DNA of 25,103 bases from a bacterium (lineage in GTDB: Bacteria > T1Sed10-126), in NCBI GenBank assembly GCA_003554945.1, contig PWHN01000093.1, positions 1 through 25,103 on the forward strand, read 5' to 3'. Shown here one piece after another: positions 820 through 23,430 of the stretch. Made by a program: the position numbers and the translations under genes. The notes below the pieces were generated by a model. The model saw nothing but the letters and a program-made list of their open reading frames with translations. It did no database searches and was not told the DNA's origin. Each line of letters starts with the position of its first letter. Positions within the stretch are counted from its first letter, which is position 1.

Positions 820-904
820 CACTCTCCTATAGAGTAATAATAGCAAAAATTTATAATTGAAACTACTGCCCTATTGAAATCCTTTGTACTATCTTAGAGA
901 GCAA

Positions 905-935
905 TTGATTAGTGCCACATTTTAAATATCTATAG
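905..935 (+). promoter_or_regulatory. Putative promoter of ccdA leader
   Basis: TTGATT (905-910) is followed after 16 bases by TATCTA (927-932), within TATCTATA. The same arrangement is kept in the second cassette at 9659-9690, with one extra T in the spacer. Transcription would begin near 940, a few bases before the 5' arm of the closing stem. The upstream sequence TTGAAATCCTTT is also shared by both cassettes and may be an additional promoter or operator element. Confidence 0.6.
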
Positions 936-940
936 ACTTA

Positions 941-1128
941 ACTTGGGCTACTCAAAGGTGTTTGACGGGTTTATAGCTGGCAATAGATCCTGGAGGATCT
1001 GGTTATTGCCAGATATACCTCGGAGATTGGCAGGAGGCTAATCGAGAATGAGTCCCAACACCTTTGAGTAGCCCGGCTTCAGCAAGGATTTTAATAGAGC
1101 CGAAACTACTGACTCAGGTGCTTGTTAA
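941..1128 (+). promoter_or_regulatory. Structured 5' leader RNA, copy 1 (three-way junction)
   Basis: Closing stem P1 pairs 945-962 with 1057-1074, 18 bp perfect. P2 (972-1017) has CTGGCAATA/TATTGCCAG, a one-sided four-base bulge TGGT and a GATCC-TGGA-GGATC tip. P3 (1019-1046) has CTCG/CGAG, a bulged GAG and ATTGGC/GCTAAT closing the loop AGGAG. A small 3' helix pairs GGCT (1075-1078) with AGCC (1098-1101), 27 bases before the ccdA start. Segments near the junction (GACGGGTTTATAG, GAATGAGTCCC) are nearly identical in the copy before kdsA. The gene's ribosome binding region ACTCAGGTG resembles the P1 5' arm ACTCAAAGGTG, so the P1 3' arm could alternatively cover it. I do not recognise a known riboswitch class. 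Confidence 0.7.
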
Positions 1129-4901: not shown

Positions 4902-5728
4902 TGAAATTTTTTAAACTTCATGGTCTTGGCAACGATTATATTGTTATCGATGAGCGAGAGGAAAATTCTGTGCCTGAGGAAGAAAAAGGAGAACGTGCCA
5001 CACAGCTCTGCAGACGCAGTTTAGGACCGGGAGCCGACGGCGTCTTATACCTGAACAACTCGCAAAGCTCGGACGTGGAAATGCGCATTTTCAACGCCGA
5101 CGGGTCAGAAGCCGAAAGCTGTGGTAATGGTCTGCGCTGTTGCGCTTACTATCACCACGGATTGGAGAATATAGGGACGGGCGAATACGAAATTGAACTC
5201 CCGCTGGCCTCACCAGTGCAGGCATCAGTTCAGCTAAAACAGCCACCAACCGCCGAAGTTACCCTGCAGATGGAGACAGCAGGCAAATACGAAGCCCGCA
5301 AAACACTTGAGCTCGAAGACCTGGAACTACGTTACCACTCGGTTAACGTCGGTAACCCACATGCCGTTGTCTTCCTCGATGAAAATCCGGCGCTGTCCCG
5401 TAAACCAGCCAACGCTGCTGTAGTAGAGATAGGCAAACAGCTCCAGACACATCCCACTTTTGCACCAACCCACGGCGTCAACGTTGAGTTCGTCCGCGAG
5501 CTAACAGCCGCTCGTTATGAAATGCGAGTCTTTGAACGCGGCGTCGGTGAGACAACTTCCTGCGGCACAGGCAGCGTCGCCGTTGCACGCGCCGCTCACG
5601 TCCTCGGCCGCGCCCCCGACGACTGGGTTACCGTCGCTCAACCGGGCGGCGACCTCGACATTGAGCCCGTCCAGCATAAGCTGCGCGGCCCGGCCGAATG
5701 GGTTTACACCGCCCAACTATCCAACTAG
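4901..5728 (+). CDS. dapF: Diaminopimelate epimerase
   Basis: Converts LL- to meso-diaminopimelate, the precursor of lysine and of the peptidoglycan cross-link, without a cofactor. Its 275 residues are the normal length. The N terminus MKFFKLHGLGNDYIVID is typical. The two catalytic cysteines are Cys74 in ESCGNGLRC and Cys221 in TTSCGTGS. The gene overlaps the aminotransferase stop (TAATG), indicating translational coupling and consecutive steps in one pathway. The gene is followed by a CCAACTA-type tandem array and the convergent E1-like gene. Confidence 0.96.
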   Translation: MKFFKLHGLGNDYIVIDEREENSVPEEEKGERATQLCRRSLGPGADGVLYLNNSQSSDVEMRIFNADGSEAESCGNGLRCCAYYHHGLENIGTGEYEIELPLASPVQASVQLKQPPTAEVTLQMETAGKYEARKTLELEDLELRYHSVNVGNPHAVVFLDENPALSRKPANAAVVEIGKQLQTHPTFAPTHGVNVEFVRELTAARYEMRVFERGVGETTSCGTGSVAVARAAHVLGRAPDDWVTVAQPGGDLDIEPVQHKLRGPAEWVYTAQLSN

Positions 5729-5799
5729 CCAACTAACCAACCAGCCAACCAGCAAACTAGCTAACTAACCAACCAGCCAACTAACAAACTAAACAACCA
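5716..5799. repeat. Degenerate CCAACTA/CCAACCA tandem array
   Basis: From the end of dapF to the end of the convergent gene the sequence is a run of words such as CCAACTAGCCAACTAACC, with a period of about 8 bases. A similar array occurs at 13845-13884. It overlaps the last codons of dapF (AQLSN), suggesting that array sequence has replaced or extended the original 3' end. Confidence 0.6.
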
Positions 5800-6500
5800 C
5801 CATCCCGCTGTACTTTTAATGTCATAAATGACATCCGGCGCAGATCGACACGCAGTAGCCGGCCGACAAGCAATTCATCCATCCCCAGCAGCAATTTTAT
5901 CGTCTCCGCCGCTTCCAGTGTTCCGATAACCCCGGGCGTAAAACTTGCCGGGCCGGGTGCCGCATCATCGGCCTCCGGAGCTTCTGCATAAAGACAGGCA
6001 TAACAGGGACCCTTGCCCGGATAAAAGGTGGAGACTTCTCCCTCAAACCGGTAGACAGCGCCGTGAACAAAAGGAATTTCATGCTCCTGAGAAAGCTTGT
6101 TCATTGCCTGGCGGGCAGCAAAGTTATCAACCGCGTCTACAATTACGTCGTAATTGTCTGCCGACAGGATTTTCTCGCCGGATTCGCAGGTAAACTCAGA
6201 CGTATAAGTCTTTATATCCAGCTCCGAATTTAGCTCCTGCAGCCCGCGTTGCGCCGACTCCACCTTCAGTTTACCGACATCACTTTCCTTATACAGTATC
6301 TGCCGCTGCAAATTTGAAAGTTCCAGGTTATCAAAATCTACCAGCCCGAGTCGACCCACTCCAGAAGCCGCCAGATAGTAAGCAATTGCCCCCCCTAAAC
6401 CTCCGGCGCCGACCAGCAGCACGCTCGCTTCGCTCAGCTTCTGCTGCCCGGCCGGACCAATTCCCGACATTGCCAGGTGACGGCTGTAACGCTCCTGCAA
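5781..6500 (-). CDS. ThiF/MoeB/HesA-family E1-like adenylyltransferase
   Basis: This family adenylates the C terminus of ubiquitin-like sulfur carriers (ThiS, MoaD) or related peptides. RYSRHL begins the domain; VGAGGLGGAIAYYLA is the nucleotide-binding loop; DFDNLELSNLQRQILY and DAVDNFAARQ follow the MoeB/ThiF pattern. CYAC and the terminal CLVC give the structural zinc site. No rhodanese domain is present. The start is uncertain: the frame is open to a TTG at 6587, overlapping the upstream gene, while a TTG at 6500 lies 4 bases after that gene's TGA and gives a normal N terminus; a GTG in between is also possible. No sulfur carrier is visible nearby, so thiamine, molybdopterin or another role cannot be chosen. 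It is linked to a TMEM43-family gene. Confidence 0.85.
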   Translation of the reverse strand: MQERYSRHLAMSGIGPAGQQKLSEASVLLVGAGGLGGAIAYYLAASGVGRLGLVDFDNLELSNLQRQILYKESDVGKLKVESAQRGLQELNSELDIKTYTSEFTCESGEKILSADNYDVIVDAVDNFAARQAMNKLSQEHEIPFVHGAVYRFEGEVSTFYPGKGPCYACLYAEAPEADDAAPGPASFTPGVIGTLEAAETIKLLLGMDELLVGRLLRVDLRRMSFMTLKVQRDGGCLVC

Positions 6501-7758: not shown

Positions 7759-7806
7759 CCCTCCGAGAGAGAGGATACCGGTGAGTGGGGAACTTGACCT
7801 AAAGCT

Positions 7807-7860
7807 CGTCATTCCGGCCCACGAGCCGGAATCCAGTGACTTTGACCTTGATTTTCGGTC
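7807..7860. repeat. ATTCCGGC palindrome repeat, copy A
   Basis: ATTCCGGC (7811-7818) and GCCGGAAT (7825-7832) form an 8-bp stem around CCACGA, flanked by CGTC and by CCAGTGACTTTGACC. Four more copies lie in this window, all between genes. The layout resembles the widespread GTCATTCC...GGAATCCAG type of extragenic palindrome. Confidence 0.85.
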
Positions 7861-9478: not shown

Positions 9479-9506
9479 AACTTGATCTTGACCTTGACCT
9501 AACGCT

Positions 9507-9535
9507 CGTCATTCCGGCCCACGAGCCGGAATCCA
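9507..9535. repeat. ATTCCGGC palindrome repeat, copy B
   Basis: Palindrome arms at 9511-9518 and 9525-9532 around CCACGA. The copy lacks the CAGTGACTTTGACC tail after the palindrome; similar CTTGACCTTGACC words stand before it instead. Confidence 0.8.
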
Positions 9536-9658
9536 TCTTTACGGTCTACGGTCAACGAATTTCAGTTTTTGGATTTAACTTTTAAACTTTTACACTTTTA
9601 AACTTTCACACTTTTTAACTGGCTATGTTGAAATCCTTTTTACTATCTCAAAGAGAAA

Positions 9659-9690
9659 TTGATTAGTGTTACCTTTTTAAATATCTATAA
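9659..9690 (+). promoter_or_regulatory. Putative promoter of kdsA leader
   Basis: TTGATT (9659-9664), 17-base spacer, TATCTA (9682-9687) within TATCTATAA. It matches the promoter of the ccdA cassette in sequence and position relative to the folded leader. Confidence 0.6.
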
Positions 9691-9695
9691 ACGTT

Positions 9696-9882
9696 AATTA
9701 AGCTACTCAAAGGTGTTTGACGGATTTATAGCTGGCAATAGATCCTGGAGGATCTGATTATTGCCAGATATACCTTGGAGATTGGCCGGAGGCCAATCAA
9801 GAATGAGTCCCAACACCTTTGGGTAGCGCGGCTTCAGCAGAGACTTCAATAAAGCCTTTCAACTCACAAAAAGGTGTTCTCA
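9696..9882 (+). promoter_or_regulatory. Structured 5' leader RNA, copy 2 (three-way junction)
   Basis: Second copy of the fold before ccdA. P1 pairs 9702-9717 with 9812-9827 (16 bp, one U-G). P2 has CTGGCAATA (9732-9740) with TATTGCCAG (9759-9767), bulge TGAT and the GATCC-TGGA-GGATC tip. P3 reads CTTG...CAAG where copy 1 has CTCG...CGAG, and ATTGGC/GCCAAT where copy 1 has ATTGGC/GCTAAT, so pairing is preserved by base changes. The 3' helix GGCTT/AAGCC ends 26 bases before the kdsA ATG, against 27 in copy 1. The ribosome site AAAGGTGTT (9870-9878) is perfectly complementary to the P1 3' arm AACACCTTT (9812-9820). Confidence 0.7.
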
Positions 9883-11783: not shown

Positions 11784-11892
11784 CTTCTTGGGTTATACTC
11801 CTCGCGCCATTGCCTTTGTATTCCCCGCCCTGGCTCTTGATTTACACGAACTTGCGCCTCTGCGCCTTCGCGTTCCCCGCTCTTGAACTTGA

Positions 11893-11940
11893 CGTCATTC
11901 CGGCCCCTGAGCCGGAATCCAGTGACTTTGATCTTGAACT
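11893..11940. repeat. ATTCCGGC palindrome repeat, copy C
   Basis: Arms at 11897-11904 and 11911-11918; the loop is CCCTGA instead of CCACGA. The CCAGTGACTTTGA tail is kept. Confidence 0.8.
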
Positions 11941-13618: not shown

Positions 13619-13994
13619 ATAATACATGGCCCCGAAAATATCAAACTTTATCTTGCTGCCTATCGTCCCCCGTTTTCACCTGGGGCTTGTCCCTTAATCT
13701 TTCTTTGCCCCCCTTTCCCTCTTTTCTTCGCTCTTGAATTTACGCTCTCTCGCTCTTCGCTCTTATGATTTCCCGAACTTTCGCTCCTCGCTTTTTGCTT
13801 TTCCCCGAACTAACGCCAAGCGCCCTGCTCCCTGCGCTCTGCGAACTAACCAACTACCCAACTAGCCAACTACCTAACCACCATCTTCCCTAAACTCGCC
13901 TCGCTTGTTAAACTGAAACAGAACCTAATAGCTCCAATTGACGGTTTATATCATTATCCCTGCTCAACTTTACTCCTAATTCGGTGACGCTGCA
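13619..13994. other. Intergenic low-complexity region
   Basis: Pyrimidine-rich words (CTTTCGCTCCTCGC, CTCTCTCGCTCTTCGC) and a short CCAACTACCCAACTAGCC array at about 13845-13884, the same family as at 5716-5799. The downstream CDS has only a weak GGTGA ribosome site. No gene is seen. Confidence 0.5.
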
Positions 13995-15983: not shown

Positions 15984-16079
15984 CTCGCCGGTCTCCCGTC
16001 CGTCATTCCGGCCCACGAGCCGGAATCCAGTGACTTTGACCTTGATTTTCGGTCTTTCGCAAGCTCCCATGCTCGCCTG
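15984..16079. repeat. 96-bp direct repeat, left copy (contains palindrome copy D)
   Basis: Identical to 17152-17247 except for one base (CCCGTCCG against CCCGCCCG). It contains the ATTCCGGC palindrome (arms 16005-16012 and 16019-16026). The two copies flank the small-protein/nucleotidyltransferase pair in direct orientation. Confidence 0.9.
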
Positions 16080-17151: not shown

Positions 17152-17247
17152 CTCGCCGGTCTCCCGCCCGTCATTCCGGCCCACGAGCCGGAATCCAGTG
17201 ACTTTGACCTTGATTTTCGGTCTTTCGCAAGCTCCCATGCTCGCCTG
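17152..17247. repeat. 96-bp direct repeat, right copy (contains palindrome copy E)
   Basis: One mismatch to 15984-16079. Palindrome arms at 17173-17180 and 17187-17194. Confidence 0.9.
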
Positions 17248-21062: not shown

Positions 21063-22187
21063 TTGATTAAAAAAAATGACCATTATTTGGTTTTAAACTC
21101 TTATTCAATAATACTTCCAAAACTATTGGAAGAAATGAATGCCCTCGATATAAATACCAAATTCACCATTGCTAATCCAAAAAATTCCAGTCTTGATAGT
21201 GATGAAATACAAAACAAATATCATAAGCTGAAGGTAAATGTTCTTGTGTTTAACGAGTCAAGGTTTTCTAAAAATAGTTTACAAAAATTAAATAGTAATA
21301 ATTATGGTGGCGTTATTATACTGGTTCATCCTCGGGATGTGTCCAAACATTTTCACCTTCTTAAAAATGCTCGCAAAATATTTGACTTGCCCATCCTTAC
21401 TTATAATAACATCGATGGACTACAAAAATTAACTTTTAAAACCTTTTTGAAATTATTGCCTCGATATCTTTTCGAAACTTCTTTCTTAAATAATTTAGCA
21501 GCATTTCGCAAAATTTACTACTTTGGGTTTAAATATCATTGTCCAATATGTAATTCAAAACTCAGAAAATTCGAACCATTTGGCTCCCGCAAACCTCCCC
21601 GCCCGCACGCTCAATGCCCCGTCTGCAAAAGCGTTGAAAGACAGCGGTTAACTTGGATGTATTTGAAAAATCATACTGATTTATTTTCTGAAAAAAACAG
21701 TCTTCTTCACTTTGCGCCAAGAAGCTCCATCTACGAAAAATTGAAAGCCAAAAAATCAATCAAATATTATCCCGTGGATATTACGGACCGTAATGCAAAT
21801 ATCCAGTTGGATATCCAGCGCTTACCTTTCAATGATAATTCATTTGACTATATCTGGTGTAGTCATGTTCTAGAACATGTAAAAAATGATCAACAGGCTT
21901 TGGGTGAATTAAATAGGGTGCTAAAAGTAGATGGAAAGGCGATAATTTTAATCCCACTTCAAGCAGAAAAAACAGAAGAATTTACCCATCTTAGTTCGAG
22001 AAAAGCACGATTAGAGAAAACCGGACACCCCGAACATCTCAGAAATTACGGCCCGGACTTTAAAAAACGTCTTATGGATGCCGGTTTTAATGTTAAAATT
22101 TTAGAAGCAAATGAATTATTTCAAGAACATCTACTTAAAAAAACGAATTGTAACAAAAAGGAAAATATATTTTTGTGTTCTAAATAA
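21063..22187 (+). CDS. Zinc-ribbon SAM-dependent methyltransferase, paralog 1
   Basis: A 374-residue protein in three parts. Residues 5-150 are a Rossmann-like N-terminal module (HYLVLNSYS, FTIANPKNSSL, YGGVIILVHP, ILTYNNIDG). Residues 160-188 hold a zinc ribbon with Cys160, Cys163, Cys185 and Cys188. Residues 210-310 are a class I methyltransferase: LLHFAP in place of the glycine loop, IQLDIQRLPF, and FDYIWCSHVLEHV, followed by GELNRVL. The TTG start is supported by colinear alignment with the next gene, which starts with ATG at the same residue, and by GGA about 10 bases upstream. In this setting a sugar or glycan is the likely substrate. Distinctly AT-rich. Confidence 0.82.
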   Translation: MIKKNDHYLVLNSYSIILPKLLEEMNALDINTKFTIANPKNSSLDSDEIQNKYHKLKVNVLVFNESRFSKNSLQKLNSNNYGGVIILVHPRDVSKHFHLLKNARKIFDLPILTYNNIDGLQKLTFKTFLKLLPRYLFETSFLNNLAAFRKIYYFGFKYHCPICNSKLRKFEPFGSRKPPRPHAQCPVCKSVERQRLTWMYLKNHTDLFSEKNSLLHFAPRSSIYEKLKAKKSIKYYPVDITDRNANIQLDIQRLPFNDNSFDYIWCSHVLEHVKNDQQALGELNRVLKVDGKAIILIPLQAEKTEEFTHLSSRKARLEKTGHPEHLRNYGPDFKKRLMDAGFNVKILEANELFQEHLLKKTNCNKKENIFLCSK

Positions 22188-22305: not shown

Positions 22306-23430
22306 ATGTTTAAGAACAATAATCATTACCTGATTCTAAAATCATATTCAATAATGCTTGAGGAATTATTACATGATTTAAATGATTCAAGTAATGATTT
22401 TGAAATCACAGTGGTTAGTACTAATAATTCCAGTCTTCCCAAAGATAAAATTAACAAAATTAGCTCAAAACTTGATGTAAATATAACTGAAATCACTGAA
22501 AACAAATACTCCAAAAACGCATTGAAAAGCTTTAAGAAACAAGACTTCTCAGGAATAATTCTTCCTATACATCCTGAAAAAACAGAAAAGTATTTTCCCC
22601 TAATACGACTCATAAAAAAAGAATTCATTCCACCGTTATTCACTTATAACAATTTGGATGGTTATCAAAAAATTACCCGGTGGAATTATTTTAAGTTATT
22701 CACAAAATACTTAATTGAATCGCTTGAGCTGGAACGTTTTACTCCTTTCAGAAAATTATATTACTTTGGTTTGAAGCATAAATGCCCTGTTTGTCATTCG
22801 AAACTCCGAAAATTTAACCCACATGGCACTAAGAAGCTTCCCCGTCCAAATGCTAAATGTCCTGTATGTAACAGCATGGATCGCCAAAGATTATTGTGGC
22901 TTTACCTAAAAAACTTTACAGACTTTTTCAATAAAAATCTAAAACTTCTCCATTTTGCCGCCCCTGAAAAAATATATAACTTGCTCAAATCACATGAAAA
23001 AATTGACTATTACCCAGTTGATTTTAAAAAGCGTCGGTCCGACCTTCAACTAGACATACAAAAAATTCCTTTAGAAGATAATTGTTTTGATTATATTTGG
23101 TGCAGTCATGTTTTAGAACATGTGAAAGATGACCAAAAAGCGCTACGAGAATTATATCGTGTACTAAAACCAGGCGGTACAGCAATAATATTGATCCCAA
23201 TAAATGCTGAAAAAACAGAGGAATTTATCCATCTAAACACTCCAAAACAACGTTTGGAAAAAACCGGGCATCATGATCATTATAGAAATTATGGTTTCGA
23301 CTTTAAAAAACGCCTGGTAGACTCAGGTTTTAAGGTTCAAGACTTAAAAGCCAAGGACGTGTTTAGCAGCGAAGAACTTGAAAAAATACAATGTGACGAA
23401 TCGGAAATAATATATTTTTGCTCTAAATGA
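22306..23430 (+). CDS. Zinc-ribbon SAM-dependent methyltransferase, paralog 2
   Basis: Same length (374 residues) and architecture as the preceding gene, with the cysteines at the same positions (160, 163, 185, 188) and long near-identical blocks such as FDYIWCSHVLEHVK and AEKTEEF. The N-terminal module is the most diverged part. LKPGGTAIILIPIN is a more canonical post-motif than LKVDGKAIILIPLQ in paralog 1. GTGGTGA lies just before the ATG. Tandem duplication followed by divergence is likely, perhaps for methylation at two positions of one glycan. Confidence 0.85.
   Translation: MFKNNNHYLILKSYSIMLEELLHDLNDSSNDFEITVVSTNNSSLPKDKINKISSKLDVNITEITENKYSKNALKSFKKQDFSGIILPIHPEKTEKYFPLIRLIKKEFIPPLFTYNNLDGYQKITRWNYFKLFTKYLIESLELERFTPFRKLYYFGLKHKCPVCHSKLRKFNPHGTKKLPRPNAKCPVCNSMDRQRLLWLYLKNFTDFFNKNLKLLHFAAPEKIYNLLKSHEKIDYYPVDFKKRRSDLQLDIQKIPLEDNCFDYIWCSHVLEHVKDDQKALRELYRVLKPGGTAIILIPINAEKTEEFIHLNTPKQRLEKTGHHDHYRNYGFDFKKRLVDSGFKVQDLKAKDVFSSEELEKIQCDESEIIYFCSK

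Follow-up and report, generated by a model that had tools for sequence, protein, structure and literature searches.

Several prokaryotic MITEs with structured transcripts have been described, among them QMITE, BOX, RUP, SPRITE and ERIC, and such elements often fold and nest (PMC10969869). The repeat analysed here resembles them in being short, intergenic and multicopy, in its inverted ends and short direct repeats, and in nesting. It differs in that a single junction core, its helices replaced, recurs in families whose ends differ and in several lineages. In the open-licence literature, we found no described MITE with one junction common to families with different ends and to unrelated bacteria. 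For IS6100, a member of the IS6 family, an inverted repeat (GGCTCTGTTGCAAA) and an 8-bp target duplication are described (PMC4478539).

Other systems share single properties with this locus. The HEARO or omega RNAs of IS200/IS605 and IS607 are also structured RNAs on transposable elements, but here there was no Rfam match and no adjoining TnpB or IscB was seen. IS200/IS605 elements lack inverted ends and target duplications, both of which are present here. The bcr1-type repeats of the Bacillus cereus group are likewise mobile non-coding elements with a predicted RNA fold; however, no shared sequence was recognised, and bcr1 forms a single family confined to one lineage. Integron attC sites, like the present core, keep their geometry and unpaired letters while their stem sequence is free, but attC is a single hairpin, whereas the core is a three-way junction, and no integron context was seen.

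MITE-like elements upstream of ccdA and kdsA

The window, by which we mean the whole stretch of 25,103 nucleotides that was analysed, carries two copies of a repeat. The initial annotation had placed the limits of the first copy at 871 and about 1105. Both copies are present, but the repeat is a bounded element that runs from 867 to 1101. Between the two copies, a 182-nt stretch is 90% identical and a 53-nt stretch 85% identical. As had been reported, they stop 27 bases short of the ATG of ccdA (1129) and 26 bases short of the ATG of kdsA (9883). The features of the two copies are as follows.

859..866, no strand: left target-site duplication of element 1, GAAACTAC, identical at 8/8 letters to 1102-1109
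867..1101, + strand: family-A MITE-like element, copy 1, 235 bp
867..884, + strand: left terminal inverted repeat of copy 1, TGCCCTATTGAAATCCTT
945..966, + strand: P1 5′ strand, ending at the invariant junction C
966..971, + strand: junction strand J1/2, CGGGTT here and CGGATT in nearly all other copies
972..1017, + strand: P2 hairpin with a TATA/TATA base, a 4-nt 3′ bulge and a GGA apical loop
1017..1024, + strand: invariant ACCTCGGA between P2 and P3, the same letters in 12/12 families
1025..1043, + strand: P3 hairpin, in whose place other copies have unrelated hairpins
1044..1051, + strand: invariant GAGAATGA between P3 and P1, the same letters in 11-12/12 families
1052..1074, + strand: P1 3′ strand
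1084..1101, − strand: right terminal inverted repeat of copy 1
1102..1109, no strand: right target-site duplication of element 1, GAAACTAC
9613..9620, no strand: left target-site duplication of element 2, TTTTAACT, identical at 7/8 letters to 9857-9864
9621..9856, + strand: family-A MITE-like element, copy 2, 236 bp
9712..9817, + strand: three-way-junction core of copy 2, 120 bits with the covariance model
9857..9864, no strand: right target-site duplication of element 2, TTTCAACT

Both copies are, with high confidence, non-autonomous MITE-like DNA transposons: they have inverted repeats and a target duplication of fixed length, and they are multicopy, non-coding and intergenic. When copy 1 was used as a BLAST query against the draft assembly from which it comes (2.2 Mb, 121 contigs, 93.5% complete), 79 matches were obtained, many of which were pieces or inverted arms of one copy. 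This result identifies a dispersed repeat rather than a pair of leaders. The consensus of the family-A terminal inverted repeat is GGCTCTGTTGAAATCC. Its first 15 letters, GGCTCTGTTGAAATC, occurred 65 times in the genome at no more than 2 mismatches, compared with 5 occurrences of a reversed-pattern control.

For 25 elements with definable bounds, the match between the two flanks peaked at exactly 8 bp (identity 0.59 versus 0.31 in shuffled flanks, sd 0.037) and was much lower at the adjoining lengths. Nine of these elements shared at least 7 of 8 flanking letters, where 0.5 were expected (0/2000 shuffles). The 8-bp duplication holds for families A and B, while the sample for families C, D and E consisted of 8 elements only. 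Terminal inverted repeats were found in families A and B; those of families C, D and E and of genome G284 (see below) were read by eye.

Family A has the appearance of a MITE of IS6 type. The ends (GGCTCTGTTGAAATC) together with the 8-bp duplication are like those of IS6100, from which 1-2 letters differ; in contrast, the interior of the element is non-coding, and a Pfam search of the 93.5%-complete draft at E<=0.01 found no IS240-type transposase (PF13610). Derivation from IS6 was not adopted: the ends and the duplication fit, but a mobilising IS6 transposase was not found in the genome. An ISL3 origin was rejected, as the ISL3 transposase family (Pfam) was absent from the draft at E<=0.01. 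Several contigs terminate within these repeats, and draft genomes from metagenomes (MAGs) often lose repeats and insertion sequences. An autonomous copy was sought by reading solitary inverted-repeat ends in the genome, which gave remnants only. Four elements of 66-92 bp consist of little beyond family-A ends and lack the core, so the core is dispensable for the movement or persistence of some copies.

The window has other repeats. A palindromic dispersed repeat, CGTCATTCCGGCCCACGAGCCGGAATCCA, is present in five copies (7790-7835, 9490-9535, 11876-11921, 15984-16029 and 17152-17197) and is apparently unrelated to the MITE-like element. At 5704-5804 and 13841-13885, after dapF and elsewhere, 8-bp units such as CCAACTAG/CCAACTAA are repeated in tandem. 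The adjoining genes at 21063-22187 and 22306-23430, of 374 amino acids each, are tandem duplicates whose DNA stretches are 71-72% identical.

A three-way junction with invariant strands and covarying helices

The core has the layout CGGAUUU-P2-ACCUCGGA-P3-GAGAAUGA and is closed by P1, which is about 20 bp long and begins at the junction in nearly all families. Its pattern was written as CGGATTTN{24,54}ACCTCGGAN{12,42}GAGAATGA. Helices P1, P2 and P3 of the initial annotation are all present, and the compensating changes that it had seen between the two copies hold up, with much more support than a pair of copies could give. In a first set of 11 cores from three families, 28 of 44 pairs had changed on both sides. 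Among 40 distinct cores, 95.3% of pairs were kept, compared with 68.2% when the letters of the 3′ strands were shuffled. The covariation score of these cores was 0.69 versus 0.19 after shuffling, and structures slid by 1-3 columns scored no more than 0.12; the 40-core alignment was fitted to the model and is thus biased towards the structure, but the gaps to slid and shuffled controls are still large. A second covariation test gave 95.5% of pairs kept versus 62.6% shuffled, with a score of 0.80 versus 0.19. Changes on both sides were seen in 29-30 of 35 pairs, with 29 in the 40-core set. Two parts of the fold are putative, since they vary too little across copies: the P2 closing pairs GG/CC and an extension of P3 by CUC/GAG.

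The junction behaves in the opposite way. When one core per family was compared (n = 12, with genomes G284, G176 and G124 included), the strands CGGAUUU, ACCUCGGA and GAGAAUGA were identical in 11 or 12 of the 12, whereas the helices shared almost nothing. About 20 junction letters are thus kept while the helices are replaced. A three-way junction in which the single strands are invariant and the helices covary is well supported, and our confidence in it is high. A conserved ATG in GAGAATGA was considered as a start codon and rejected, since by eye it led to unrelated peptides or early stops, depending on the family.

The covariance model placed the core at about 60 sites in this genome, where cases at contig ends were possibly counted twice. 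It is carried by nine or more element families, labelled A to I, which differ in their ends or helices. P3 can be exchanged whole: several family-A copies bear a 72-nt hairpin with the stem CCGAGCACTCAAT instead. At one place, a family-B element is inserted in the P2 arm of a family-I element, and head-to-head pairs of cores were found at three places. Family-D cores at three loci were apparently nested where a degenerate family-E core would have its P3; in other family-D cores, P3 was larger by about 130 nt.

Further copies were found outside this genome. A family-D copy is on contig PWHR01000048.1 of a MAG labelled Thermoplasmata from sample T1Sed10, a name that we take to indicate soda-lake sediment. 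The genes on this contig are bacterial (ExbD- and TonB-like), so its placement is probably a binning error. The first GTDB pattern yielded only one related contig because it demanded the TATA base of P2. A covariance model (R2) trained on the present genome plus PWHR01000048.1 was then applied to 386 genomes. It matched G176 (E 7e-16), G284 (five copies, best 9e-16) and G124 (1e-10), with weaker matches in G068; a match in another genome at E 0.003 was too weak and was treated as chance. Four bacterial lineages other than that of the present genome share the core. The exact three-strand junction pattern was present in 4 of the 386 genomes (the present one, G176, G124 and G284), compared with none for the reversed control. 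The initial annotation had expected that a covariance model run on relatives would give many matches with more covariation, and the cores of this genome and of three unrelated genomes agree with that expectation.

The core of G176 has 71% G+C and wholly different stems, which excludes contamination. The copies of G284 lie inside an element with the ends TTAAGCAAAAGTG. The core was found once each in G124 and G176, which gives no sign of mobility there. It was absent from the sister genomes of G284, G176 and G068, from a genome of the same family as the present one, from plasmids and phages, and from viral contigs (three patterns).

In Rfam at the gathering threshold, nothing in the window was matched apart from one tRNA, and copy 1 had no match at E<=10. 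A search with 13 related loci from other families and lineages gave only one snoRNA match, which was due to chance. No family of Rfam 15, with HEARO and the small ribozymes included, was matched by covariance model. The earlier statement that the fold belongs to no known class thus stands for copy 1 and for representatives of the other families and lineages.

Folding strand and possible function of the core

In paired positions, G-T/T-G outnumbered A-C/C-A by 53 to 8 when counted by cell, and by 21 to 8 with a single count per family and position (p 0.024). This excess marks the + strand as the folding strand. The asymmetry favours RNA over DNA without proving it, because G-T is a milder mismatch than A-C in DNA also and is better tolerated there.

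The function of the core, unlike the element and the fold, we infer. The best reading, to which we give about an even chance, is an element-borne structured RNA that is read through its junction by a trans factor acting on many elements. The core would act as a + strand RNA, with either the element or a neighbour as the origin of its transcription, and the invariant junction would be recognised in trans by a putative factor that serves many elements. Candidates for this factor are a protein that binds RNA or mobilises elements, and an enzyme that processes RNA at the P1 duplex (about 20 bp). What is selected would then be how well the elements spread or are tolerated, and not the control of neighbouring genes.

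A single-stranded DNA fold is the next possibility, and we consider it rather unlikely. In this case, the + strand hairpin would be recognised as DNA by a recombinase, a relaxase or a replication factor, as integron attC sites and IS200/IS605 ends are recognised as folded single-stranded DNA. Free stems with kept geometry and unpaired letters would suit such recognition, and so would mobile elements that exchange or nest hairpins; the excess of G-T over A-C is also expected of folded single-stranded DNA. However, the inverted repeats and 8-bp duplications of families A and B are of the DDE type and need no single-stranded fold, and no recombinase partner was seen.

Mobile elements are also known to carry hammerhead and HDV ribozymes, and three helices of free sequence around some 20 invariant letters, in mobile hosts with no fixed gene context, might form a new small self-cleaving or otherwise catalytic RNA. 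We regard this as improbable from the comparison with known ribozymes: Rfam, where the known small ribozymes are deposited, yields nothing, P1 is always longer than a ribozyme needs, and no signature of a cleavage site was recognised.

The conserved, covarying fold of no known class stands from the initial annotation, but its interpretation as a promoter-plus-leader cassette or riboswitch does not. Both window copies are in sense orientation just ahead of a start codon, as expected for a cis-acting leader of ccdA and kdsA. Yet the shared upstream sequence, which had been taken for a common promoter, is the element's own left end, and a search for sigma-70-like promoters gave none in either copy (1.0-1.1 expected in shuffles). 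Across the genome, a gene start faced the 5′ side of the core (core antisense and upstream) at 34 of 46 places and the 3′ side (core sense and upstream) at 20 of 45 (Fisher p 0.006), the opposite of what a leader would give; only places with a callable neighbour were counted, and genes were called as the longest ORF, a simple rule that may err in individual cases. The class of the downstream gene is not constant, with ccdA and kdsA here and varied, unrelated genes elsewhere. With no preference for the sense-upstream position and no sigma-70 promoter found, and with an element that is bounded by target duplications and has varied neighbours, we rejected a leader or riboswitch role as very unlikely. 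That an ordinary MITE merely folds by chance in a functionless interior is the least credible explanation of all, since stable hairpins are common in MITEs (PMC10969869) but one invariant junction is kept here across unrelated families and lineages, and its helices covary far more than shuffled controls do.

The analysis also corrects what is probably a wrong annotation, namely a 'riboswitch' ahead of ccdA and kdsA. Because the junction letters are kept while the stems are rewritten, both between families whose ends differ and between unrelated bacteria, something appears to read the junction. MITEs are usually viewed as passive leftovers of insertion sequences. The core may possibly, though we hold this doubtful, represent an undescribed class of trans-recognised or catalytic RNA that unrelated small DNA transposons have spread across several bacterial lineages and that serves their movement as a shared cofactor or signal. 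HEARO earlier pointed to RNA-guided nucleases. If the core is an RNA, these elements would carry a functional RNA class that is missing from Rfam, with a cofactor or an activity that is directly testable.
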